Shown: positions 4,906 through 40,871 of the stretch, piece after piece
Layout: each line of letters opens with the position of its first letter
Position numbering within the stretch: the first letter of the stretch is position 1
DNA from: Bacteroidaceae bacterium
Lineage (GTDB): Bacteria; Bacteroidota; Bacteroidia; Bacteroidales; Bacteroidaceae
Direction of reading: 5' to 3'
Assembly (NCBI GenBank): GCA_024398615.1
Contig: JAKSIU010000026.1
Location: 1 to 40,871, forward strand
DNA length: 40,871 nucleotides
Position numbers and translations under genes: made by a program
Notes under the pieces: model-generated
What the model was told of the DNA's origin: nothing
Seen by the model: the letters and a program-made list of their open reading frames with translations, nothing else
The model's database searches: none

Positions 4906-4966
4906 ATCCGAACAGGGGACAGGTTCCGTTCGCAATTGGCGAACGGAACCTGTCCCCTGTTCGGAT
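4906..4966. repeat. Long perfect palindrome between convergent genes (REP-like)
   Basis: Two 28-base arms (4906-4933 and 4939-4966) are perfectly complementary around the 5-base loop AATTG. The arms contain AGGGGACAGGTTCC. The palindrome fills most of the gap between two convergent genes, where it could terminate both or stabilise their mRNA ends. There is no T tract, so it is unlike an ordinary intrinsic terminator and resembles a REP-type element of the kind moved by Y1 (RAYT) transposases. Confidence 0.8.
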
Positions 4967-7304: not shown

Positions 7305-8807
7305 TTACTGTTTCTTCGCGAACTTCCTGCCTATGACCGGAAGGGAACTCAAAGGCAGATCTTTCTTAAGTATGTATGCAATGTAGATTGCAATCAGAAC
7401 GGTGTTTGCAGTCAGTGCAGCCCAGACAGGCAACGCCCTGCACACGAGATACACCGCATAAAGCACTGCTGCAAGGAGTACATACACGGCTATGTCCTTC
7501 ATGGGATACTGTATGTCGCTGTATCTGCGCCCTATGAAATACGACATAAGCATGCAGACGGCATATCCGGCAAATCCGCCCCATGCACAGGCCATATAGC
7601 CGTATTCGGGAACGAACAGCACGTTTACGGCAATCATGACAGCTGCACCGGTACCGCTCATGACGGCACCCCACCAGGTCTTGTCGGCCAGCTTGTACCA
7701 GAATGACAGGTTGAAATATATGCCCATGAACAGTTCCGCCATCATCACTATCGGAACCACATCAAGTCCCACCCAATACTCATGATTGGTCACGAGATAA
7801 CGGAATATGGGGAGATAGAACATTACTGCAAGGAATGCCAGCAGACCGAAGATTATGAAATATTTCATTCCCTGAGCCAGCGTATCGGCACTGTCCTTGT
7901 CCTTGGCTCCACCGAAAACGAATGGTTCGTACGCATAACGGAACGCCTGGGTCAGAAGACTCAGAATCATTGCTATCTTGACACATGCCCCGTAAATGCC
8001 AAGCTGGACCTGCCCTTCCTGTCCCGGGACCAGTTTCGGATAGGCCATCTTGTCAAATACCTGATTCAGAATACCTACAAGACCGAGAAGCAGTATGGGC
8101 CATGCGTAGGAGAGCATTCTGCGGCACAGTTTCCAATCAAAGCCGTATGTTATTCCCTTGAGCTCCTTCAGGAAACCGAATGTCACAAGGAAGGTACACA
8201 GAAGATTGACAAAGAAAATCAGACCGACACCATAATCAAAGCTCTCATAGAAATTCTGCAGCGAAGGCATGACATTGAACATCTTGGGCAGAAGCCAGAA
8301 TACAGCCACGTTCAGAATCACATTGGGAATGATGAAGGCCATCTTGAGTATCATGAACTTGACCGGACGGTGCTGCTGGCGCAGGCGGCCGAACATTATT
8401 GCCTGGAAGGCATCCAGCCCACCGATTATGGCAAAGCATGCTATGTATTCCGGATGTGTCGGGTAACCCATGAAGTCCGATATGGGACCGAGGAATGCCA
8501 GTACCAATGCAATGAAAACCAATGCGACCGCACCCACCATGCGCAATGCGGTGCTGTAGACCATGTTCTCATCCTCACCTTCCTTGCTGGCAAACCGGAA
8601 GAACGTGGTTTCCATGCCGAAAGTGAGCAGCACGAAAATCAGGGCCGCATACGCGTACAGGTTGGATACTATTCCATAACCTCCGCTTTTGGGATCGATG
8701 AAATGGGTATGAACAGGAACCAGAAGGTAGTTCAGAAAACGACCCACTATACTGCTTATTCCGTAAATGGCTGTATCCTTGGCCAGCCTTGCCATCTTTC
8801 CTGCCAT
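7305..8807 (-). CDS. Polysaccharide flippase-type membrane protein (MOP superfamily)
   Basis: A 500-residue, very hydrophobic protein with about 14 membrane segments and the typical start of the family (LAKDTAIYGISSIVGRFLNYLLVPVHT). It belongs to the MATE/Wzx/MurJ-type exporters that flip lipid-linked oligosaccharides across the inner membrane. It starts 2 bases after the TonB-receptor-like gene ends, so it is translated from the same mRNA. The ATG at 8795 is a possible alternative start. No glycosyltransferases accompany it, so the lipid-linked substrate must be made elsewhere. A 388-residue antisense frame over this gene is a shadow. Confidence 0.88.
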   Translation of the reverse strand: MAGKMARLAKDTAIYGISSIVGRFLNYLLVPVHTHFIDPKSGGYGIVSNLYAYAALIFVLLTFGMETTFFRFASKEGEDENMVYSTALRMVGAVALVFIALVLAFLGPISDFMGYPTHPEYIACFAIIGGLDAFQAIMFGRLRQQHRPVKFMILKMAFIIPNVILNVAVFWLLPKMFNVMPSLQNFYESFDYGVGLIFFVNLLCTFLVTFGFLKELKGITYGFDWKLCRRMLSYAWPILLLGLVGILNQVFDKMAYPKLVPGQEGQVQLGIYGACVKIAMILSLLTQAFRYAYEPFVFGGAKDKDSADTLAQGMKYFIIFGLLAFLAVMFYLPIFRYLVTNHEYWVGLDVVPIVMMAELFMGIYFNLSFWYKLADKTWWGAVMSGTGAAVMIAVNVLFVPEYGYMACAWGGFAGYAVCMLMSYFIGRRYSDIQYPMKDIAVYVLLAAVLYAVYLVCRALPVWAALTANTVLIAIYIAYILKKDLPLSSLPVIGRKFAKKQ

Positions 8808-12205: not shown

Positions 12206-12373
12206 TAGAACCTGTTTTGAAATGTTCGATTAAAAATTTTATGAAAGATTTTCGAGATGAAAATTCGGTTGTTTGAAGGAGCAATGGGGCTCCATTGTGA
12301 CTGAAAAGAAACGGATTTTTCAGCCGGAAAGATTTTATAAAAGATTAATTGGAACATTTCAAAACAGGTTCTA
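12206..12373. mobile_element. MITE-like element with terminal inverted repeats and TA duplication
   Basis: A 164-bp element (12208-12371) begins GAACCTGTTTTGAAATGTTC and ends with the exact complement, GAACATTTCAAAACAGGTTC. It is flanked on both sides by TA (12206-12207 and 12372-12373), the target preferred by IS630/Tc1/mariner-type transposases. Inside is a nested hairpin with central stem GCAATGG/CCATTGT. It carries no gene, so a transposase elsewhere would have to move it. It sits between the divergent gene starts at 12146 and 12435; a diverged copy lies at 1372-1493. Confidence 0.8.
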
Positions 12374-30083: not shown

Positions 30084-31544
30084 ATGGCATCGAACGGAAA
30101 CATACAGTCTCAGATACAGACCCAGTCCCAGACCCAGCAGCAGACGCTTTCTCCCCAGCAGTTACTGGAAGCCAAGCTGCTGCAGCTCTCGGTCGTTGAA
30201 CTTGAGGAACAGGTCCGTAATGAACTGGGTGACAACCCTGCACTCGAGGACATGCCTCAGGATTATACTCAGGAGCAGGACAGTGAATCTGATGACGGAC
30301 AGGAAAATGACCGCAGCCCACAGGATCATGACGATTTCGGAATCTGGGAAGACGCCGATGATACCGATGGCGGGCAATACAACGGAACAGCCAGCGGCTC
30401 GTATCTTCCGGAAATCCCTGTTGCCGATACGCTGTCCTTCTACGACCTTCTTGCCGAACAGCTGGCTGAACAGGAACTGGATCCGAGACAGAAGCAGATT
30501 GCACTGTATCTGATAGGTTCCATAGACAATAACGGTTTCCTGGACAAGGACCTTCAGGCAATATCCGATGACCTGGCCTTCTACCATGGTCTGGACACTA
30601 CAATTGACGAAATCGATTCCGTTCTGAGAATCATTCAGGACTTCGATCCAGCTGGAATAGGTGCCAGAGACCTGCAGGAATGCCTTCTGCTTCAGATAAG
30701 GCGCAAGCCGGGAACTCCTGACACGGAACTCCAGGAACTGGTAATAACCGAGATGTTCGACGACTTCACCCACAAGCGCTGGGACAGAATAGGGCAACGT
30801 CTCGGGTTGGATGACAATCAGGTACAGGACATCATCTCTGAACTGGTGCGTCTCAATCCCCGCCCCGGCAGTGCCATGGGAGAATCTGTAGGACATAACC
30901 GTCAGGTTGTCGTTCCTGACTTCCTGCTTGACAACTATGACGGTGAAATCCATTTCCAGCTGAACAGCAGCAACATACCTGTCCTCAGGGTAAGCCAGGA
31001 GTATTCCGACATGCTGGAACGTCAGTCAAAGGGAACGAACAGCAGTCAGCGCGATGCGGCCATCTATCTTAAACGCAAGCTGGATTCCGCCCGGAATTTC
31101 ATTGAAGCCCTGAAACAGAGGCACCAGACCATGACCCGCACCATGCAGGCCATAATCGACATGCAGATGCCTTTCTTCACAGAAGGCGATGAGACACTGC
31201 TCAAGCCAATGATACTGAAGGACATTGCCGGCAGGACCGGCTATGACATCTCCACCATTTCACGTGTATGCAGCGGCAAATACGTCCAGACCCCGTACGG
31301 TACATTCCCGTTGAAATGGTTCTTCACCGATGGCGTGATGAACAGCGATGGCGAAGAGGTATCAGTGAAACAGATACACAGCCTGCTGCGCGAACTGACT
31401 GAAAACGAGGATCCTGAAGCCCCCCTGTCGGACGGACAGCTGGCTGAAAAGCTTCAGGAGAAGGGATTCACCCTGGCACGCAGGACCATTGCCAAATACC
31501 GTGACCAGCTTGGAATTCCGGTAGCAAGACTCAGAAAGAAATAA
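30084..31544 (+). CDS. rpoN: RNA polymerase sigma-54 factor
   Basis: A 486-residue sigma-54. The ATG at 30084 is chosen over an in-frame TTG at 30075 that overlaps the upstream stop. Region I is glutamine-rich and activator-binding (SQTQQQTLSPQQLLEAKLLQ), followed by an acidic linker (about 60-105), the core-binding domain, and the DNA-binding domain ending with the RpoN box ARRTIAKYR at about 465-473. All regions expected for a working factor are present. It lies in a tight plus-strand run from the nucleoside kinase to ispG. Confidence 0.95.
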   Translation: MASNGNIQSQIQTQSQTQQQTLSPQQLLEAKLLQLSVVELEEQVRNELGDNPALEDMPQDYTQEQDSESDDGQENDRSPQDHDDFGIWEDADDTDGGQYNGTASGSYLPEIPVADTLSFYDLLAEQLAEQELDPRQKQIALYLIGSIDNNGFLDKDLQAISDDLAFYHGLDTTIDEIDSVLRIIQDFDPAGIGARDLQECLLLQIRRKPGTPDTELQELVITEMFDDFTHKRWDRIGQRLGLDDNQVQDIISELVRLNPRPGSAMGESVGHNRQVVVPDFLLDNYDGEIHFQLNSSNIPVLRVSQEYSDMLERQSKGTNSSQRDAAIYLKRKLDSARNFIEALKQRHQTMTRTMQAIIDMQMPFFTEGDETLLKPMILKDIAGRTGYDISTISRVCSGKYVQTPYGTFPLKWFFTDGVMNSDGEEVSVKQIHSLLRELTENEDPEAPLSDGQLAEKLQEKGFTLARRTIAKYRDQLGIPVARLRKK

Positions 31545-32075: not shown

Positions 32076-33469
32076 TGGAACAGACACACGGCTACTTGAG
32101 ACGCAGGACGACCCCCGTCCATGCAGGCGGTCTTGTCATAGGAGGCGATGCACCTATCCGCGTCCAGAGCATGACAACCGCTTCGACCATGGATACCCAG
32201 GCATGCATCGGACAGGCCATACGCATTATCGAAGCCGGAGGCGAGCTGGTCCGCCTGACAGCTCAGGGAACCCGTGAAGCACTGAATCTGAAGAATATCC
32301 GTCAGGGACTCAGGGAACGCGGATACGACACCCCTCTGGTAGCTGACATACATTTCAATCCGGCCGTGGCCGATGTCGCAGCCACCATTGTCGAAAAGGT
32401 ACGCATCAATCCCGGCAACTATGTGGATCCGGCACGCACTTTCAAGAACCTGGAATACAGCGATGAGGAATATGAGGCCGAAATCGGGAAAATCCGCCAC
32501 AGGCTTGTTCCGTTTCTGGACATCTGCCGGAAAAACGGTACCGCCATAAGGATAGGAGTGAATCACGGGTCCCTGTCAGACCGTATCATGAGCCGTTACG
32601 GCAACACCCCGGCAGGAATGGTGGAAAGTTGCATGGAGTTTCTGAGGATATGCGTGGAACAGGACTTCATGGACGTGGTCATATCAATCAAGGCCAGCAA
32701 CACCTGCGTCATGATAGAGACCGTCCGTCTTCTGGTAAGACAGATGGATAAGGAGAACATGGCGTTCCCGCTCCATCTTGGTGTGACCGAAGCCGGCAGC
32801 GACATGGAAGGACGCATAAAAAGTGCTGTCGGCATTGGCGCCCTTCTGGCCGAAGGCATAGGCGACACCATCCGTGTCTCGCTTTCCGAGGCTCCCGAAA
32901 AGGAGATTCCTGTTGCACGGAAGCTGGTGGACCATGCACCGGAAAGCGCCCTGTTCAGGGAGCACGCATCGGACCATATCACAGCCGATGGCACGCTGCA
33001 TCTGAGCTACAGGGAAAGCTCCATCGAGGACCTTCAGCTGAAGGCGGCCATGGATGCCGGAGCCCTGCTTATTGACGGAAAGGCCAAGGATCTGGAAATA
33101 ACCGACGAGACCGGAACCTTCACTGCCGCAGAGCTCAGAGATACGGCCGATGCCATACTCCAGGCCGCACGCATACGCTTCACGAAGCCCGAATACATTT
33201 CATGTCCCGGCTGTGGACGCACTCTGTATAATCTGGAAGACACCATTGCACGCATCAAGGCAGCCACCTCGCATCTCAAAGGTGTGAAGATTGCCGTCAT
33301 GGGATGCATAGTGAACGGCCCCGGCGAAATGGCCGATGCCGATTTCGGATACGTGGGCGCGGCACGCGGCTGCATCAGCCTTTATAAAGGAAAAGAGTGT
33401 ATTGAGAAGAACATCCCCGAAGATCAGGCGGTGGAGCATCTGCTGGCCCTGATTGAGAAATCAAAATAA
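32075..33469 (+). CDS. ispG: 4-hydroxy-3-methylbut-2-enyl-diphosphate synthase with a short middle insert
   Basis: A 464-residue iron-sulphur enzyme of the MEP isoprenoid pathway. The TIM-barrel part has PLVADIHFNP, KVRINPGNY and IRIGVNHGSL; the cluster domain has Cys377 and Cys380 in SCPGCGRTLYNLE, Cys411 in GCIVNGPGE and Glu418. Between about 285 and 372 there is extra sequence absent from the E. coli enzyme (372 residues). Bacteroidetes and plant enzymes usually have a much larger inserted domain there, so this one looks like a reduced form. The ATG overlaps the purE stop. Confidence 0.93.
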   Translation: MEQTHGYLRRRTTPVHAGGLVIGGDAPIRVQSMTTASTMDTQACIGQAIRIIEAGGELVRLTAQGTREALNLKNIRQGLRERGYDTPLVADIHFNPAVADVAATIVEKVRINPGNYVDPARTFKNLEYSDEEYEAEIGKIRHRLVPFLDICRKNGTAIRIGVNHGSLSDRIMSRYGNTPAGMVESCMEFLRICVEQDFMDVVISIKASNTCVMIETVRLLVRQMDKENMAFPLHLGVTEAGSDMEGRIKSAVGIGALLAEGIGDTIRVSLSEAPEKEIPVARKLVDHAPESALFREHASDHITADGTLHLSYRESSIEDLQLKAAMDAGALLIDGKAKDLEITDETGTFTAAELRDTADAILQAARIRFTKPEYISCPGCGRTLYNLEDTIARIKAATSHLKGVKIAVMGCIVNGPGEMADADFGYVGAARGCISLYKGKECIEKNIPEDQAVEHLLALIEKSK

Positions 33470-33475
33470 AAGAGG

Positions 33476-33483
33476 TATCTTTG
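33476..33483 (+). promoter_or_regulatory. TATCTTTG -7 box of the cysS operon
   Basis: A perfect TAnnTTTG match 22 bases before the cysS ATG, with TTG at 33453-33455 exactly 20 bases upstream. It lies in the 36-base gap after ispG and suggests that cysS starts a new transcription unit. Confidence 0.65.
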
Positions 33484-33505
33484 CAGACCTCGAAAACAGA
33501 ACATT

Positions 33506-34999
33506 ATGACAGAACACAAGCTTTCAATCTACAACACCCTTACCAGAAGGAAAGAGATATTCCAGCCGCTCAATGCTCCGCATGTGGGCATGTATGTCTG
33601 CGGTCCCACCGTATATGGCGACCCGCATCTGGGTCACGCACGTCCGGCCATCACTTTCGACATACTGTTCCGTTATCTCAAGCATCTGGGCTACAAGGTC
33701 AGGTACGTCCGCAACATAACCGATGTAGGACATCTGGAACACGATGCCGATGAAGGCGAGGACAAGATTGCAAAGAAGGCACGCCTTGAGCAGCTTGAGC
33801 CCATGGAGGTGGTCCAGTACTACACACTGCGCTACCACAAGGCCATGGAGGCTCTGAATGTTCTGCCGCCAAGCATCGAACCTCATGCATCGGGCCACAT
33901 TATCGAACAGATAGGACTGGTACAGCAGATTCTTGACAATGGCTTCGCATACGAGAGCCAGGGTTCCATCTACTTCGATGTGGAAAAGTATAACCGGAAA
34001 TACAACTACGGCAAACTGTCGGGCCGCAATCTGGATGACGTGCTCAACACCACCCGCGAGCTTGACGGTCAGGAAGAGAAGCGCAACCCTGCCGATTTCG
34101 CACTCTGGAAGAAGGCACAGCCCGAGCATATAATGCGCTGGCCGTCACCATGGAGTGACGGATTCCCGGGCTGGCACTGCGAATGCACTGCCATGGGACG
34201 CAAGTATCTGGGAGAGCACTTTGACATTCACGGTGGCGGCATGGACCTTATCTTCCCGCACCACGAATGCGAGATTGCACAGGCTGTCGCAAGCCAGGGC
34301 AGCGATATGGTACGCTACTGGATGCACAACAACATGATTACCATCAACGGCACCAAGATGGGCAAGTCACTTGGAAACTTCATCACACTTGAGGAATTCT
34401 TCAAGGGCAGCCACAAGGACAAGGAAGGCAACGAAATGCTGCAGCAGGCATACAGCGGCATGACCATACGCTTCTTCATTCTCATGGCCCACTACCGCGG
34501 AACCGTCGATTTCAGCAATGACGCACTCATTGCCGCTGAAAAGGCCATGGCCAGACTCATGGATGCCTGCCAGTCCATTGAGCGCATCAGACCTGCCGCA
34601 TCGGACACACAGCTGCCCGATTTCCAGTCAATGTGCTATGAGGCAATGGATGACGACCTGAATACGCCTATAGTCATAAGCCATCTGTTCGATGCCGTAA
34701 AATACATCAACCAGGCCGCTGACGGCAAGATCCACCTTGACCAGTCCCAGATTGACAGTCTCAAATCCCTGTTCGACATCTTCCTGTTCGAGATTCTGGG
34801 AATCCAGGCAGAAAAGAGTTCCGGTTCAGGCCGCGAGGAGGCATTCAGCAAGGTCGTCGACATGCTGCTTGAACAGCGCGCCATTGCCAAGGCAAACAAG
34901 GACTGGGCTACCAGCGACAGGATACGCAACGAACTTCAGGCTCTGGGCTTTGAAATCAAGGACGGCAAGGACGGAGCTACCTGGAAACTGAACCGCTGA
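33506..34999 (+). CDS. cysS: Cysteinyl-tRNA synthetase
   Basis: A 497-residue class I synthetase charging tRNA-Cys. The HIGH-type motif is HLGHARP after the zinc-ligand [19 protein letters not shown] and the [10 protein letters not shown] segment supply the other zinc ligands, and [10 protein letters not shown] is the KMSKS-type motif. The C-terminal helical anticodon domain is complete. It is followed after 11 bases by the M28 lipoprotein gene and then sufE, probably one mRNA. Confidence 0.97.
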
Positions 35000-35010
35000 C
35001 TGTACAGAAC

Positions 35011-36027
35011 ATGAGAAAGGCACTTTATCTGGCGTTGGCTGCACTGACAGTCATCTCGTGCGGAAGCCGCAAGTCACCTGCCAGGAACATGGGCAGCGCA
35101 CAGACTTCACAAATGAATCAGGAACAGACTGCTGTTGACGTTCCCGTATTCATGGCAGACAGTGCATATTCATACATTGCCGCCCAGTGCGCATTCGGGC
35201 CGCGAGTCCCGAACACTGCGGCCCACAAGGCATGTGCCGCATGGCTGGAATCAAAGCTTAAGAGTCTGGGTACCGAAACCATTGTCCAGGAATACCGGAC
35301 AAAGACCTTTGACGGTACTGAACTGAGCTGCTTCAACATAATAGGACAGATCAATCCGGAATGTACCAGCCGCATAATTCTATGTTCCCATTGGGACAGC
35401 CGTCCGTGGGCTGACAACGACCCGGACCCGCAAAATCACAAGACCCCCATTGACGGTGCCAACGATGGTGCCAGCGGTGTGGGCGTGATTCTGGAACTGG
35501 CACGCATGATCCAGCAGGTACCCGTCAGCATAGGCATCGACTTCATGTTCTTCGATGCCGAAGACTGGGGACCGGGTGATGACTGGACAGGCCGCCATAA
35601 GGAAGAATATTGGGGACTGGGCACCCAGTACTGGGCCAGACACCAGCACAGGGAGGGCTACAGGGCACGCTATGCCATACTGCTTGACATGGTAGGAGGC
35701 AAAGGCGCACGCTTCCCCATGGAACAGTACTCCGTGCGCTACGGCAAGACCGCTGTTGACAAGGTATGGGACACGGCCGCCCGACTGGGTTACGGCCATC
35801 TTTTCCCCAAGACCGACGGTTATTTCGTTACGGACGACCATCTTTTCATCAATACCATTGCCCGCATTCCCGCCATTGACATAGTACCATACGTACCTGC
35901 ATCGGACGGGACATCGTCATTCGGACCGACCTGGCACACCGTCAGCGACAACATAGGCAATATTGATCCGGCCGTTCTCAAGATTGTGGGTCAGACACTT
36001 GCAACGGTAATATATTCAGAAAAATAG
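35011..36027 (+). CDS. M28-family lipoprotein, glutaminyl-cyclase-like
   Basis: A 338-residue lipoprotein (MRKALYLALAALTVISC, Cys17) with one zinc-peptidase domain of the M28 family. Metal and catalytic motifs are CSHWDSRPWADND, DGANDGASGVGVILELAR and FFDAEDWG; a later SDGTSSFGPTWHT segment matches the C-terminal histidine region. The pattern is that of glutaminyl-peptide cyclotransferases, which turn N-terminal glutamine into pyroglutamate; an aminopeptidase cannot be ruled out. It probably faces the periplasm. Spacing is 11 bases from cysS and 4 bases to sufE. Confidence 0.88.
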   Translation: MRKALYLALAALTVISCGSRKSPARNMGSAQTSQMNQEQTAVDVPVFMADSAYSYIAAQCAFGPRVPNTAAHKACAAWLESKLKSLGTETIVQEYRTKTFDGTELSCFNIIGQINPECTSRIILCSHWDSRPWADNDPDPQNHKTPIDGANDGASGVGVILELARMIQQVPVSIGIDFMFFDAEDWGPGDDWTGRHKEEYWGLGTQYWARHQHREGYRARYAILLDMVGGKGARFPMEQYSVRYGKTAVDKVWDTAARLGYGHLFPKTDGYFVTDDHLFINTIARIPAIDIVPYVPASDGTSSFGPTWHTVSDNIGNIDPAVLKIVGQTLATVIYSEK

Positions 36028-36031
36028 CAGC

Positions 36032-36448
36032 ATGACAATAGAGGAGACACAGCAGGAAATCATTGAGGAGTTCAGCGTCTTTGACGACTGGATGGACAAA
36101 TACCAGATGATCATTGACCTGGGCAATGACGTGCCTGCACTTGACGTACAGTTCAAGACCGATGACAACCTGATAGACGGCTGCCAGAGCCGGGTATGGC
36201 TTCACGAATATATGGAGGACGGACAGCTCAAGTTCCAGGCCGACAGCGATGCCATCATCACCAAAGGACTGATAGGGCTGCTCATACGCACCCTCTCAGG
36301 CCACACCCCGCAGGAAATTCTGGAGAGCGATGTGCACTTCATTGATGACATAGGTCTGACCCAGCACCTGTCGCCCACCCGCAGCAACGGCCTGCTGTCA
36401 ATGCTGAAGCAGATCAAGGCCTACGCTCTGGCCTACAGCCGCCGCTGA
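36032..36448 (+). CDS. sufE: SufE family protein
   Basis: A 138-residue cytosolic protein that accepts sulphur from the cysteine desulphurase SufS during Fe-S cluster assembly. The active Cys51 lies in LIDGCQSRVW. The N-terminal helix (EEFSVFDDWMDKYQMIIDLG) and the GLLIRTLSGHTPQEI segment are typical. It lies 4 bases after the M28 gene. Confidence 0.93.
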   Translation: MTIEETQQEIIEEFSVFDDWMDKYQMIIDLGNDVPALDVQFKTDDNLIDGCQSRVWLHEYMEDGQLKFQADSDAIITKGLIGLLIRTLSGHTPQEILESDVHFIDDIGLTQHLSPTRSNGLLSMLKQIKAYALAYSRR

Positions 36449-36453
36449 TTTCA

Positions 36454-36501
36454 GAAAAAGTGTAATTTTCCAATACGGATATCAAGGAAAAAGTGTAATT
36501 T
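36454..36501. repeat. Direct repeat GAAAAAGTGTAATTT
   Basis: The 15-bp sequence occurs at 36454-36468 and 36487-36501, a 33-bp period. It lies just upstream of the DUF4143-like remnant. It could be what is left of a duplication or a pair of binding sites. Confidence 0.5.
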
Positions 36502-36560
36502 CGTAAGCATAGGAATGCTCACAGGACGATTGTACGAATACAATATCACTCCTGTGATGA

Positions 36561-36824
36561 AGGACGAAGGGTGAGGTTGATTATCTTGTCAACAATGCCG
36601 CAGGAATGACAGTCTTGCCTATTGAGGTGAAATCTGGAAAGGATTACACTTCGCATAAGGCACTTGACAGGTTCCTTGCCGACAAAGAGTATAATATCCC
36701 ATCGGGTATTGTGCTTGACAATGAGCGCGAAGTATATACAAAGGACAACATCACCTATATGCCTATCTATTATATAATGTGTATAGAACGAAGCGGAATC
36801 CCCGAAGATGACGGCATCTTTTAA
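36561..36824 (+). pseudogene. C-terminal remnant of an AAA-ATPase/DUF4143-type protein
   Basis: The frame upstream of the ATG at 36606 is open to a stop at 36558-36560 and reads KGEVDYLVNNAAGMTVLPIEVKSGKDY in two overlapping pieces: GEVDYLV followed by LPIEVKSGK. This is the acidic-plus-ExK nuclease-like end seen in AAA/DUF4143 proteins. The whole N-terminal ATPase part is missing, so the 87 codons are a relic. A short frame before it (ATG at 36515, LTGRLYEYNITP) is in another phase and may be another piece. Function is presumably lost. Confidence 0.65.
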
Positions 36825-36840
36825 TCCGCAAAAGGACATA

Positions 36841-36848
36841 TATCTTTG
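36841..36848 (+). promoter_or_regulatory. TATCTTTG -7 box of the TPR gene
   Basis: A perfect TAnnTTTG match ending 8 bases before the ATG at 36857, so the leader would be only a few bases. The corresponding position in front of the second TPR copy (40801-40808) reads TGTCTTTG. Confidence 0.55.
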
Positions 36849-36856
36849 CCATCACA

Positions 36857-38467
36857 ATGAAACAGATAATAAGAATCCTGATAATGGTACTTGTCTGTGC
36901 ATCATGCGGCAGGAACCACCCCATACGCACTCTGTCCCGCATAGAGGCCATACTGGACTCTGACCCTGCGGCAGCCCAGGCCAGCCTTGACAGCATCGAT
37001 GCCACCACCCTGAAGGGCAGGCATCTTGCCCGGTACGCCATGCTCAAGACCCAGGCGGACTACAAGTGCTACGTTGACATACCCAGCGACAGCCTCATAC
37101 GCATAGCCACCGACTGGTACGGAACCCGCCACAAGGACTGGCATGCCGCCATGAGCTGGTACTCGCTGGGGTGCGTCAGTGACCTGAACGGGAACGAGCT
37201 TGACGCTCTTGATGCCTATCTCAAGGCCATGTCGCTGTTCTCCGACACCACAATACGATATTACGCCCTTTGCCAGCAGAATGTAGGCGTATTGTATGAG
37301 AAACGTCACATGAATCAGGATGCCCTGCGATTATTTAATTCGTGCATAGCAAATTCTGTACGGCTTGATGACAAGGCCACTGAATTATTCGCCAGATATC
37401 ATTCAGGTCTTTGTCTGATGTATTTGGAAGAATATTCCATGTCTGACAGTATATTCAACTCAATACTGGCCGATAACATGTCAACAGCAGAACAGAAGAA
37501 TAACATATTGTTGCAAAAAGCAAAGATAAAGTTGTATAATGATCAGAATTACGAAGATGTGATCCAACTTATCAACCAACACCTGTCTGTTCTCTCCAAA
37601 CCAGAATTGTCCGGTGCAGCACTGTCTGTTAAAGCAGCAGCATTCTATTCCATGAATGAACTTGACTCCGCTTACAACTGTTACAAACTTGCCATGGAAT
37701 ACAGAAATGAACTATATACCCTATGCAACAATGCAGACAGACTTGTCAGGCTTTCAGTTCTTAAGGGTATCGATTCTGATGCAATATATTATATGGATGT
37801 ATTCAAGACCGCAATGGATTCAATCTCGATATTGAGACATACCAGTGAGATTGAGGAAATCAGACAAGGTTACAAGACAGAACTTGCGCAACAGGCCATG
37901 AAATCCAGAATCCAGCGTATAACCCTGATATGTGTGTCACTGGTAATCATATTCATACTGGTAACCGTACTCGTATATATTGCCAGGATGAATGCCCAGA
38001 AGGAGAAACTCCGCCACAGCAGCATTGAGATACTCGAGGCAAAGGTGCGCGAACAACAGGACAATGACCCTGAAGCACGACAGACACTGCTCAAACTGTA
38101 CCGTCAGCGTATTTCATACTGTAGCCGCAGGTTCCAGACCACACCAGAGTACAAGACCTTGCTCTCACTTAAGGCCAATGCGGTGTCCGGAAATACCAGT
38201 TACGCTGAAATGACCGGGATCTCAACCGCACTCAAGAACTCATACATAGAGGTCATACAGGACATCCAGACCGAAATGCCCATTGCCAAAGAGCAGGACT
38301 ACATAACCATAATACTTATGTCAATAGGATGTGAGAATGACCTGATAGCCGCTGTAATTGGCGGAATAACACGTGATGCCATACGCAAACGCAAACACAA
38401 AATCATGGAAAACATGGCACCCGACTATCTGGATATGATAAATTCTGCCGCATTAAACGCCAGATAA
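36857..38467 (+). CDS. Transmembrane TPR protein with possible C-terminal helix-turn-helix
   Basis: A 536-residue protein: an N-terminal signal with lipobox CASC (Cys17), then tetratricopeptide-like helices to about 350 (WYSLGCVSDLNGNELDALDAYLKAM is one repeat), a single membrane segment (about 362-386, LICVSLVIIFILVTVLVYIA), a coiled-coil stretch (about 390-425), and a C-terminal domain ending in SIGCENDLIAAVIGGITRDAIRKRKHKI, which looks like a helix-turn-helix. This suggests a one-protein sensor with TPRs outside and a DNA-binding end in the cytosol. Base composition changes near 37,315 from GC-rich to AT-rich. The gene start is repeated almost exactly at 40817. Regulator function is inferred. 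Confidence 0.75.
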   Translation: MKQIIRILIMVLVCASCGRNHPIRTLSRIEAILDSDPAAAQASLDSIDATTLKGRHLARYAMLKTQADYKCYVDIPSDSLIRIATDWYGTRHKDWHAAMSWYSLGCVSDLNGNELDALDAYLKAMSLFSDTTIRYYALCQQNVGVLYEKRHMNQDALRLFNSCIANSVRLDDKATELFARYHSGLCLMYLEEYSMSDSIFNSILADNMSTAEQKNNILLQKAKIKLYNDQNYEDVIQLINQHLSVLSKPELSGAALSVKAAAFYSMNELDSAYNCYKLAMEYRNELYTLCNNADRLVRLSVLKGIDSDAIYYMDVFKTAMDSISILRHTSEIEEIRQGYKTELAQQAMKSRIQRITLICVSLVIIFILVTVLVYIARMNAQKEKLRHSSIEILEAKVREQQDNDPEARQTLLKLYRQRISYCSRRFQTTPEYKTLLSLKANAVSGNTSYAEMTGISTALKNSYIEVIQDIQTEMPIAKEQDYITIILMSIGCENDLIAAVIGGITRDAIRKRKHKIMENMAPDYLDMINSAALNAR

Positions 38468-39023
38468 CAAGCACATTACAATTTTTCCGTTTTTTTTCCG
38501 CGGTATTTTAGGGCCAACATCCTCATGTTCGGGTACATTTGAGCCAAAAAGCGAATGTACTAATCATAATATATCAGAACATGATAGGATTGGCTTCTCC
38601 GAAGGTGGAAAAGAGTACGCATGGGTTTCTCTCGATTGGCATGAAGAAGGATATTGGTTTTTTTATGACTCACCTATTAAAAACAGCTGTTTTACCAGGC
38701 ATTACATCTTCAAACACGTCAATTTGTATACTGCATTTAATTCAGAAGTGAAACCTATGAATGGCAGTACCGAACATCGTGTATACTATCAACTTAATCT
38801 TGATTCATCCACACAAAATAGCGGTGTGGGACATTATGGTTTCCAATACCAATTGTTTGCAGGAAAAACATCAAGTTCATATAATCCAGCATCATATGAA
38901 AATGACTATTTCGATTCGAATAACGAGTTTACACTAAAGGTAGTGAACGTAAGCGAGAATCCTAGTAGGGATTCGATATCGCTTCCTTACTACATGCATT
39001 CGCTTTACTATTATTATCATTGA
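38466..39023 (+). pseudogene. Lipoprotein-like reading frame lacking a start codon
   Basis: One frame is open from within the TPR gene end to the stop at 39021, about 185 codons after 38466. It reads FFFRGILGPTSSC (a lipobox-like end at 38526), then SGTFEPKSECTNH, a Trp/Tyr-rich segment (WVSLDWHEEGYWFFYDS) and a C-terminus rich in Asn and Tyr. No ATG, GTG or TTG occurs before 38724, which would remove the first half. Either the start was lost, perhaps by recombination just after the TPR stop, or an unusual start (ATT) is used. The stop lies 2 bases before the next ATG, so it was part of that unit. Family unknown. Confidence 0.5.
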
Positions 39024-39025
39024 TT

Positions 39026-40324
39026 ATGAACAAAAGGAATTTGAAACTCAACCTGTTGCCGACATATTTGTTATTAGGAAGCATGCTTATTTCTTGTGAA
39101 GAGAAAGATGGTCCGAGTAGTCCTGAGAAGCCCGCACCTATGGTTGAAGCCACGGCTTTTACGGCAATCATATCTGACAGTTTTGGGGAATTGTCAGACT
39201 ATGATATAGCCTACGGCTCATTCGGAGTGTTATACTCCATGGAAAGTGACAATGCTCAAAGCGCGTTTAATTCGTGGGCAAACGGTAATGACAAGCCTGA
39301 CTGCATGATTTCAAATAAAACTTCTGTAATGTCGGGAGGGGATGTGAAAATACAGTTGAAAGACCTTCAGGCGGAAACTCAATACACCTACTGTGTTTAT
39401 TTCAAGTCTGAAGATGGCGAGAACAGGACAATATCACAGATCTGTACGTTTACAACTGAGAAATTCAATCCTGTCATAATCAATTCCCAGTCAAACGATA
39501 TTGAATATTATACCGCCAGCCTTGTAGGTAACGTTACCGCCAGTCCCGCAGACTTGGCCCTCTGCAAGGCAGGTATTGAGTATGCAGACACTCAGGACGC
39601 ATTATCATATAGTCCGGCAAATGAAGATTGCACTGTCAATGGAGACGGGGAAATCAGCCAAATTCTCAAGAACCTTCACCACAATACCACGTACTATTAC
39701 CGTTTCTATATTAAATCCCTCCATACCTCAGATGTGTTGTATGGTGAGGTGCAGTCGTTCACGACCAGGAATGTGGATGATATGGCCATAGACCTGGGGC
39801 TGAGTGTCAATTGGGCAAGTTGTGACTTTTTGGCCCAATCACCATTGGAGAAGGGTGAAACATTTGCGTGGGGAATGCTGGTCTCACATCACATTGGTTC
39901 CCGTGACGTTTACACCTGGTATCATGATGGTGTTTATGATTACATTGGAAGTTCAATTTGTGGAACGGAATATGATGTTGTTCATCAGACCCTTGGCGGC
40001 AAGTGGAGAATGCCTTCTGCCGCAGAGGTGAGTGAACTGTTTGAGAAATGCCAAGTGGTTATTACCGCTGCGGCCGATGGCGTGCCACCTGAAATGAAAT
40101 TCATCAGTCCAAACGGCAACTGTATGTTAATGAGCCCATTCACATACGAGTACGACTCATACAGCATATCTTCAAGCAATGACAAAAACGTGTGGCGTTG
40201 GACAGGCACCCTGTCAAATGAGAATGGCAGTAAGGCAGAGGTGCTTCAAACAGATTATTCCTATAAACCGAAAGCTATTGAACGATATAGGGAAATGGGG
40301 ATACGTCCTGTATGTGATCGATGA
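39026..40324 (+). CDS. Lipoprotein with fibronectin-like domains and a FISUMP-type C-terminus
   Basis: A 432-residue lipoprotein starting at the ATG at 39026 (lipobox LISC). Residues about 35-135 and 140-235 are two beta-sandwich repeats of fibronectin type III character, each ending in a T-Y-C/Y-Y segment then a TFTT motif. The last 190 residues match the FISUMP domain style: AIDLGLSVNWASC, then FAWGML, then GGKWRMPSAAEVSELFEKC and a final GIRPV. Such proteins are surface lipoproteins with unknown ligand. Its stop overlaps the next ATG (ATGA), and the start lies 2 bases after the preceding damaged frame, so these genes form one unit. Confidence 0.82.
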   Translation: MNKRNLKLNLLPTYLLLGSMLISCEEKDGPSSPEKPAPMVEATAFTAIISDSFGELSDYDIAYGSFGVLYSMESDNAQSAFNSWANGNDKPDCMISNKTSVMSGGDVKIQLKDLQAETQYTYCVYFKSEDGENRTISQICTFTTEKFNPVIINSQSNDIEYYTASLVGNVTASPADLALCKAGIEYADTQDALSYSPANEDCTVNGDGEISQILKNLHHNTTYYYRFYIKSLHTSDVLYGEVQSFTTRNVDDMAIDLGLSVNWASCDFLAQSPLEKGETFAWGMLVSHHIGSRDVYTWYHDGVYDYIGSSICGTEYDVVHQTLGGKWRMPSAAEVSELFEKCQVVITAAADGVPPEMKFISPNGNCMLMSPFTYEYDSYSISSSNDKNVWRWTGTLSNENGSKAEVLQTDYSYKPKAIERYREMGIRPVCDR

Positions 40325-40428
40325 AAATGATTGCCAGAAATAATATTGTTTCATCGTGCATACTGGCAATGGGGTTATTTCTGTTGACGGCGTGTGCAAA
40401 CGAACATGATCGTAATTTGTCCAATTAG
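40321..40428 (+). CDS. 35-residue mini-lipoprotein
   Basis: A very short frame from the ATG at 40321 to TAG at 40426-40428. It encodes a normal lipoprotein signal (about 24 residues with a hydrophobic core ending LFLLTAC) and leaves only 11 residues after processing, CANEHDRNLSN. The ATG overlaps the FISUMP gene stop as ATGA, which is strong support for translation. It could be a lipid-anchored peptide, a lysis-lipoprotein-like product or a truncated gene. No family match can be claimed. Confidence 0.55.
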   Translation: MKMIARNNIVSSCILAMGLFLLTACANEHDRNLSN

Positions 40429-40433
40429 TGCAT

Positions 40434-40799
40434 ATGAAGAATCTCAGTGTTTTAGTGACTGTGGTGCTGGCGTTGTTTGCCATGACCGGCTGCTCGACAA
40501 TGAAGGTGTTTAATGAGCATAACAAGCCCGAAGTGTATGCCGAGTGTTATTCCACACCTCATGAGTTGGTGCTCCCGTATTCTGATTATGCTCAGGGTGG
40601 CATGGCCACGGCATCGAGCACCTTGAGCAGAATGATTATGGAGCATTTGTCCATGGTCGGGGGAGGTGAATGGAACGGTGTGATATTGTATGACCAGACA
40701 CGCGGAACCTGGAATGGAGTCACCGCACTGTATCAGAAATACATGCCGATAATCTATGACGTGGACCTCTACAAATCCCAGAAAAAGCACAAGCGCTGA
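40434..40799 (+). CDS. Small lipoprotein of unknown function
   Basis: A 121-residue lipoprotein; the ATG at 40434 is preferred over a GTG two codons earlier. The signal peptide ends in MTGC (Cys20). The mature part contains YAECYSTPHELVLPYSDYAQGG, a glycine-rich MVGGGEWNG, and a basic end SQKKHKR. It follows the mini-lipoprotein by 5 bases and precedes the second TPR gene by 17 bases. Function is unknown. Confidence 0.7.
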   Translation: MKNLSVLVTVVLALFAMTGCSTMKVFNEHNKPEVYAECYSTPHELVLPYSDYAQGGMATASSTLSRMIMEHLSMVGGGEWNGVILYDQTRGTWNGVTALYQKYMPIIYDVDLYKSQKKHKR

Positions 40800-40816
40800 T
40801 TGTCTTTGCCGTCGCA

Positions 40817-40871
40817 ATGAAACAGATAATAAGAATCCTGATAATGGTACTTGTCTGTACATCATGCGGCA
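40817..40871 (+). CDS. Start of a second TPR-type gene, cut by the window edge
   Basis: The last 55 bases start with ATG and match the first 55 bases of the TPR gene at 36857 except for one base (Ala15 to Thr). The 16 bases before the ATG also match at 13 positions, including the TCTTTGCC box. It is therefore a tandem paralogue, arranged as TPR gene, lipoproteins, TPR gene. The rest is outside the window. Confidence 0.8.
   Translation, partial: MKQIIRILIMVLVCTSCG

Follow-up and report, generated by a model that had tools for sequence, protein, structure and literature searches.

A putative membrane-spanning TPR regulator with a mosaic 5' end beside secreted-protein genes in a Bacteroidaceae genome

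Results

The regulator gene and its predicted architecture

In this study, we analysed the whole of contig C19 (40871 bases; hereafter the window) from the draft genome of a Bacteroidaceae bacterium (G000; 72 contigs, 2.46 Mb, an estimated 82% complete), and in particular a cassette at its right end, all on the + strand. The cassette holds a gene (36857..38467) for a protein of 536 amino acids with tetratricopeptide repeats (TPR), a putative transmembrane segment and a putative C-terminal helix-turn-helix (HTH), a set of lipoprotein-like frames downstream of it and, where the contig stops, the first bases of a further TPR gene. Labels beginning with G, C and L denote genomes, contigs and fetched stretches, respectively, and the comparison set contains one assembly per species.

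The TPR gene, which an earlier note on this DNA had called from the sequence, was confirmed by the list of open reading frames (ORFs), Pfam and an alignment of TPR relatives with 21 rows (A1). The alignment places a signal peptide with a lipobox at 36857..36907, ending in a cysteine (Cys17) that is invariant in 21/21 rows, and 17 of its 29 invariant positions fall within residues 58-147. Every one of the 21 rows gives matches to TPR_1 and TPR_2 with E no higher than 1 (best E 1.2e-10); the window protein alone scores 20.1 bits, below the single-motif cut-off of 27.8. A single hydrophobic segment at residues ~355-376 (37919..37984), read by eye from the sequence, is a putative transmembrane helix and, again by eye, recurs at the corresponding position across A1. 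A full-length structure prediction of low confidence (mean predicted local distance difference test score 46.6, from 2 sequences) puts a helix at residues 343-399 and was otherwise discarded as too weak.

Comparisons with paralogues and profiles point to a putative LuxR/GerE-like HTH core at residues 479-518 (38291..38410). The C-terminus of the window protein itself gave no match row against GerE (PF00196), short of the curated cut-off of 23.5 bits; among paralogues from the same genome, the C-terminal domain of L063 scores above it (23.8 bits) and that of L062 just under it (22.2 bits). We therefore built a profile from 18 family members, including the window and C72 proteins and excluding L061-L063 so that the targets stay independent. 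Against L063 this profile gave a probability of 86, an E of 4.7e-6 and a score of 37.9 (the maximum of 30 shuffles was 19.0), and against L061 and L062 probabilities of 71 and 32, respectively. The predicted recognition helix carries an RKRK stretch in 12/21 rows of A1 and other basic variants in the remaining rows. DUF6377 (PF19904) aligns with residues 329-441 at 14.3 bits (cut-off 36.7) and is matched by 4/21 relatives at E up to 1. Since the curated cut-offs of both GerE and DUF6377 were missed, we assign the window protein to neither family. The layout that the earlier note had supposed, a sensor outside and an HTH inside, is likely on the strength of the alignment and of the GerE and profile comparisons with paralogues; the LuxR/GerE-like fold is putative, and DNA binding by it is a prediction that we infer from sequence.

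A promoter-like motif precedes many TPR genes

At 36841..36848, 8 bases before the start codon of the window gene, lies TATCTTTG, a match to TAnnTTTG, which we take to be the Bacteroidetes -7 promoter motif. Of 54 assigned TPR starts, 25 have TAnnTTTG in the 70 bases before them; with the upstream bases shuffled in 1000 rounds, the mean count was 1.8 and the highest 6. The list of starts leaves out 7 hits without an assignable start, and in 2 of the 54 (L129, L130) the ATG is internal and the gene a fragment at a contig end. No exact TAnnTTTG is present in the 70 bases upstream of the paralogous TPR gene on contig C72 of the same genome, nor upstream of the cut copy at the end of the window. 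Directly before the C72 start (~31003-31044; L060:7004-7045) is a repeat of ~40 bases that is also found on C23, C56 and C18. An invertible promoter was considered for the cassette and rejected: no recombinase was recognised by eye among the frames of 33000-40871, and within-genome comparison gave no cassette-flanking inverted repeat of at least 40 bases at 80%.

The 5' module is shared between paralogues with different bodies

The first 425 bases of the window gene (36857..37281) form a constant 5' module, which matches the C72 paralogue at 98% over its full length, a segment on which homologous recombination between C19 and C72 could act. Nucleotide identity to C72 is 98% over codons 20-141 and 47% over the body, and the fall is abrupt, with a change point at codon 142 (log-likelihood ratio 161). 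At residues that the two proteins share, third positions are alike in 115/120 codons of the module and in 54/109 of the body.

Near-identical gene starts, which the earlier note had seen within the window, recur with different bodies among paralogues of other genomes. Three TPR genes of G035 (C15, C96, C101) are 89-95% identical in the module and 42-47% after it; in the numbering of C15, codons 44 to ~103 are 97-100% identical and those to ~143 are 73-98%, with bodies at 20-27% amino-acid identity. These genes have ~300 bases in common at 91-97%, and two of the three contigs end within the module; contig ends of this kind, also seen in the window, may be an indirect sign of alternative gene arrangements. 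A G023 pair stands at 98% in the module versus 67% in the body, a G033 pair is alike over the first 41 codons, and in another genus (g147) G182 and G222 show the pattern with older-looking modules (84-93% versus 45-60%).

We next compared all TPR genes in pairs. The 98 genes collected in the genus, taken from a chosen subset of the search hits, give 4753 pairs, and the 3921 with 60 or more aligned codons in each region were used. Module identity exceeds body identity by more than 0.30 in 7/150 within-genome and 6/3771 between-genome pairs (p 1.5e-7). A second set of 42 TPR genes, 38 of them from g147, gave 17/141 and 12/720, respectively (p 1.6e-7). When bodies were matched at 30-52% identity, the module reached at least 85% in 4/143 within-genome pairs, three from G035 plus the window pair, and in 0/3391 between-genome pairs; in the second set, the matched test gave 3/129 versus 1/655 at 80% (p 0.015) and 1 versus 0 at 90% (p 0.16). 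A nearest-neighbour test for genome-wide homogenisation was negative (10/90 versus 9/90). Taken together, the mosaic pairs, the pair statistics and this null count indicate that recombination in the 5' module is well supported, by sequence comparison, in a few genomes only and suggestive in others. In 16 chosen pairs the change point lay at codons 109-153 in 14, at codon 41 in one and at codon 222 in one, a spread that fits homologous recombination better than one fixed site.

Contig C71 of G029 (L064), a complete contig of 6957 bases, has outward-facing TPR 5' modules at both ends, 85% alike over 288 bases. A general excess of contig breaks in TPR genes was also considered and dropped after a rough estimate gave no clear excess per gene.

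The window ends in another 5' module

The last 55 bases of the window (40817-40871) match the first 55 bases of its TPR gene at 54 positions (BLAST E 5.1e-20 in the 2.46-Mb genome) and the start of the C72 gene at all 55. With the 14 bases before the start included (40803..40871, +), the match to the first copy extends to 69 bases at 96%. The earlier note had described this as a second TPR gene: its count of 54 matching bases stands, and because the window is an entire contig, the gene amounts to those 55 bases, cut off by the contig end. Being terminal and identical to the C72 start, they indicate that what lies at the right end is either the beginning of another TPR gene or an additional junction with the one on C72. 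A run of exactly this kind is the residue expected from a de Bruijn assembler halting at a common repeat, presumably with a k-mer of 55. The left contig end (1-89) is likewise a repeat, 95% identical over 77 bases to C28 and 90% over ~89 bases to C56.

Downstream frames of the window cassette

The frames between the two TPR starts, which the earlier note had taken for three or four lipoprotein genes, proved to be of unequal standing: one is a complete lipoprotein gene and another a small one, and the remaining two are a truncated frame and a frame of 35 amino acids. The truncated frame (38469..39023, +), found in the ORF list, is open at its 5' end, with no in-frame ATG, GTG or TTG before 38724; it weakly resembles the 3' part of cargo family c4 (30% over 104 amino acids, E 0.008) and has any match at all in 3/37 genomes, its own included. 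The complete lipoprotein (39026..40324, +) belongs to cargo family c1, a large family matched in 36/37 genomes of the genus comparison. Its fibronectin-III-like N-terminal domains match Pfam Pur_ac_phosph_N at 30.7 bits (cut-off 30), and its C-terminal domain is one that we take to be FISUMP-like. The 35-residue frame (40321..40428, +), read by eye, has a lipobox and an ATG that overlaps the stop of the previous gene, and is probably a remnant.

The small lipoprotein (40434..40799, +) is related to cargo family c29, with 32% identity over 99 amino acids (E 7e-8) to a cargo gene of G026, and a genome search found a copy of it on contig C1 (C1:47845-48209; 95% over 365 bases). The C1 copy (L123:6850-7233) has a TATATTTG site upstream and lies beside a gene that we take to be rlmH-like. 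With its truncated, small and remnant frames, the window cassette appears reduced and looks like a rearranged form of a longer one.

The cassette interrupts a conserved neighbourhood

The left border of the cassette is a remnant 3' of sufE (36500..36824, +), recognised from the sequence and the ORF list; its frame at 36606-36821 has no Pfam match and presumably resembles the tail of a DUF4143-type ATPase. Upstream, the cysS-M28 peptidase-sufE block is kept in 15/15 relatives examined, which were fetched out of 36 with the M28 gene. Comparison of the first five frames of at least 100 amino acids after sufE showed that gene f0 follows the block in 12/15 and f1 and f2 in 11. No TPR or c1-lipoprotein match (E up to 1e-5) occurs in any of the 15, in the stretches compared. 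In G034, the nearest relative by the M28 gene (86% identity), DNA similarity to the window stops at 36453, and the genus search gave no TPR matches in this genome. Synteny kept in relatives that lack the cassette points to a gain or rearrangement at the cysS-M28-sufE site, in agreement with base composition, which is 56% G+C in the 5' module, 43% in the TPR body and 42% over 38468-40427.

TPR genes recur beside secreted-protein genes

Up to 7 TPR relatives were collected per genome. Of the 98 genes of the genus, 83 had both a closed frame and another frame after it, which lay on the same strand in 54 cases. A secretion signal, scored with a crude regular expression rather than SignalP, was present in 43 of the 54 and in 232 of 440 control genes (Fisher 1.4e-4); the 43 include a window frame of 70 amino acids at 38539 that we think is not a gene, and one of the 54 (L130) is a piece of a TPR gene. 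DUF3244-like proteins account for 21/54 of the same-strand next genes in the genus and for 14/38 in the second set. These counts bear out the earlier proposal of a regulator beside secreted-protein genes as an arrangement recurrent in relatives. The next frame was on the opposite strand in 29 cases, in 18 of which, judged by eye, it belongs to either of two conserved membrane-protein families that the TPR gene faces. In many genomes of the genus (L155, L158, L159, L161, L163, L168, L170, L171 and others), the TPR regulator faces a conserved small membrane-protein gene without secreted cargo, and such genes are perhaps a core, non-mosaic branch.

A second cassette in the same genome lies on C72, where the TPR gene has an in-frame stop. 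Downstream of it, in the same orientation, come genes for a DUF3244 protein (25.6 bits, cut-off 25), a protein whose transglutaminase and F5/8C matches are sub-threshold, a member of family c4 (no Pfam match), a fibronectin-III-like lipoprotein and a member of family c7, the G026 member of which matches the O-antigen ligase family Wzy_C. The order in G026 (L072) is TPR, DUF3244, transglutaminase-like, c4, c29 and fibronectin-III-like lipoprotein, and portions of it are present in G031, G021 and G022. TPR genes stand in tandem with cargo in between on G005:C19. In another genus (g26), with larger and more complete genomes, L230 (G281:C1) and L231 (G268:C19) carry a TPR gene, a DUF3244 gene, a short frame and a TPR gene in tandem.

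Outside the genus the TPR family is patchy, with relatives in 20/151 genomes of the taxonomic family at 1e-40, in 5/30 genera, and, at 1e-20, in 5/119 genomes of the order. When viral contigs were scanned with A1, none of the 57 pattern matches proved to be a relative, and a scan of a genome-contig collection gave a single relative (L030) that is probably the same record as G032:C15.

Other repeats

A TPR gene on G026:C4 lies between direct repeats, one of 216 bases (91%) and one of 76 bases (L073:4533-4842, 7314-7707). In G006 the same gene is split over C64 and C62 (L078, L079), which have 99 identical end bases in common and the same outer repeats. Recombination between such repeats could delete or duplicate the TPR unit. 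Near another TPR gene of the window's genome, on C32, are two direct-repeat arrays with spacings of ~84 and 102 bases (L061:467-1610, 8317-8804), the latter reaching the contig end. Elsewhere in the window, we observed a direct repeat of ~125 bases at 85% identity (1371-1494 and 12250-12372) and a 61-base inverted repeat (4906-4966; 95% self-complementary) with related copies at L061:2331-2395 and L124:4082-4133, a dispersed hairpin element.

Discussion

The explanation that we favour, with a probability of roughly 0.6, is that the cassette encodes a transmembrane one-component regulator together with local secreted cargo, and that such cassettes are diversified by recombination at the constant 5' module. 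The architecture by sequence, its recurrence, the linkage to cargo, the mosaic break and the disruption of synteny are direct observations. We infer membrane topology, DNA binding, control of the neighbouring genes and recombination as the cause of the mosaic, in a mechanism that would run as follows. The TPR protein would be a single-pass inner-membrane regulator with a lipid-anchored N-terminus, followed along the chain by a periplasmic TPR sensor, one transmembrane helix, a coiled region and a cytoplasmic LuxR-like DNA-binding end. A periplasmic cue, sensed by the TPR part, would be relayed across the membrane to the HTH, which would act on a local promoter. The TPR gene would head the transcription unit and most likely control the secreted proteins encoded just downstream, which in relatives include DUF3244 proteins, transglutaminase/F5-8C proteins and fibronectin-III/FISUMP-like lipoproteins. 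Many genomes of the genus carry several such cassettes, as do many of at least one further genus of the family. Acting within the first ~140 codons, homologous recombination or gene conversion may preserve the likeness of the 5' module among some copies. The bodies and cargo of these copies differ, so that new regulator-cargo combinations could arise behind a common module of signal and first TPR. The right end of the window would then be one more 5' module, the point at which assembly stopped. To our knowledge, neither a signal nor a target is known for this regulator family.

Two parts of this explanation can be read otherwise. The TPR proteins could be envelope scaffolds, or secretion or assembly factors for the cargo, with C-terminal helices that are a degenerate HTH and bind no DNA. 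The window protein itself has no significant match to a DNA-binding family, GerE is above cut-off only in a more distant paralogue and the cargo is often a secreted protein, all of which would suit such a role. However, the C-terminal domain retains a pattern that can be aligned with GerE, basic residues persist in the predicted recognition helix (RKRK in 12/21 rows, other basic variants in the rest) and the profile that aligns with the GerE-positive paralogue is non-circular, and we consider a scaffold unlikely. The shared 5' ends could reflect strong purifying selection on the N-terminal TPR module combined with recent duplication, without any recombination between paralogues. Indeed, between-genome pairs too show higher conservation in the module than in the body, with a mean excess of 0.097 in the first set and 0.139 in the second. 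Selection of this kind does not readily account for the near-identity of synonymous sites in the module of the window and C72 genes, which is lost in the body (115/120 versus 54/109 third positions), for a break as abrupt as that at codon 142, or for a within-genome excess in both gene sets. It is improbable and, for the window/C72 pair and for G035, already hard to hold.

The right end of the window allows a further reading that bears on the number of copies. The 55-base run may be an overlap in the assembly graph and stand for the same gene as on C72, or for a variant strain whose C19 continues into that gene. Its length of exactly 55 bases, its position at the contig end and its complete identity to C72 are what such an overlap would leave, and searches of the genome with the window and C72 genes gave no other contig that continues the module. 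Yet the sequence upstream of the C72 start is different, and on C19 the 14 bases that precede the ATG look like the corresponding bases of the first copy, so that at least two junctions to the module exist. We regard an overlap as a serious possibility, if short of an even chance; a strain variant running C19 into C72 would itself be evidence for rearrangement.

A more specific form of our preferred explanation would make the family a constant-front, variable-back system, in which a crossover in the module joins a promoter-bearing front to another sensor and DNA-binding body with its own cargo. With no exact TAnnTTTG among the 70 bases before its start and a stop in frame within the module, the C72 copy would act as a silent donor; the copy in the window, which carries TATCTTTG, would be the expressed one. 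If true, a single crossover would exchange regulator specificity and surface output together; we regard this scheme as rather doubtful. More broadly, near-identical gene fronts with divergent bodies suggest that recombination may build new combinations of switch and surface. A gene front that can be homogenised may offer a path to surface variation which a scan for invertible promoters would overlook, and the presence of regulator and cargo side by side offers directly testable pairs, asking which TPR body controls which surface operon.

Among the matches listed in a limited check of open-licence PMC papers, no account came up of TPR-lipobox-HTH regulators with linked DUF3244 cargo, nor of 5' ends that are mosaic. 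An iron study of B. thetaiotaomicron lists DUF3244 proteins, without a link to TPR regulators in the portions seen (PMC10434189), and the text seen of a report on P. gingivalis TPR genes has no bearing on these cassettes (PMC10470040).

By analogy, the cassette may work like known transmembrane transcription regulators, in which Bacteroidota are reported to be rich in the excerpts of PMC10269533, and it recalls co-component cassettes. Regulators of the ToxR/CadC/TcpP type, as the same excerpts present them, similarly combine a sensor outside and a DNA-binding domain inside in one membrane protein (PMC10269533); the main text of that paper contains no occurrence of "LuxR", "TPR", "GerE" or "lipoprotein". 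In the protein described here, by contrast, a LuxR-like putative DNA-binding domain stands at the C-terminus, the sensing part would be TPR and the N-terminus has a lipobox. In the co-component cassettes VtrA/VtrC and ToxR/ToxS, the extracts of PMC9214523 describe a membrane regulator gene that adjoins an envelope-protein gene, in cassettes that evolve fast; here both the families and the cargo are others, with large secreted lipoproteins, an enzyme-like transglutaminase and mosaic 5' ends. A further likeness is to silent-cassette or segmental gene-conversion systems such as vls of Borrelia, in that segments are common to a copy with a promoter-like site and to other copies in the genome. In vls, according to the abstracts, it is the surface lipoprotein gene itself that changes, segment by segment, with silent cassettes as the source. 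What differs in the system described here, known from sequence comparison, is that the regulator body and the genes downstream of it vary behind a constant 5' end.

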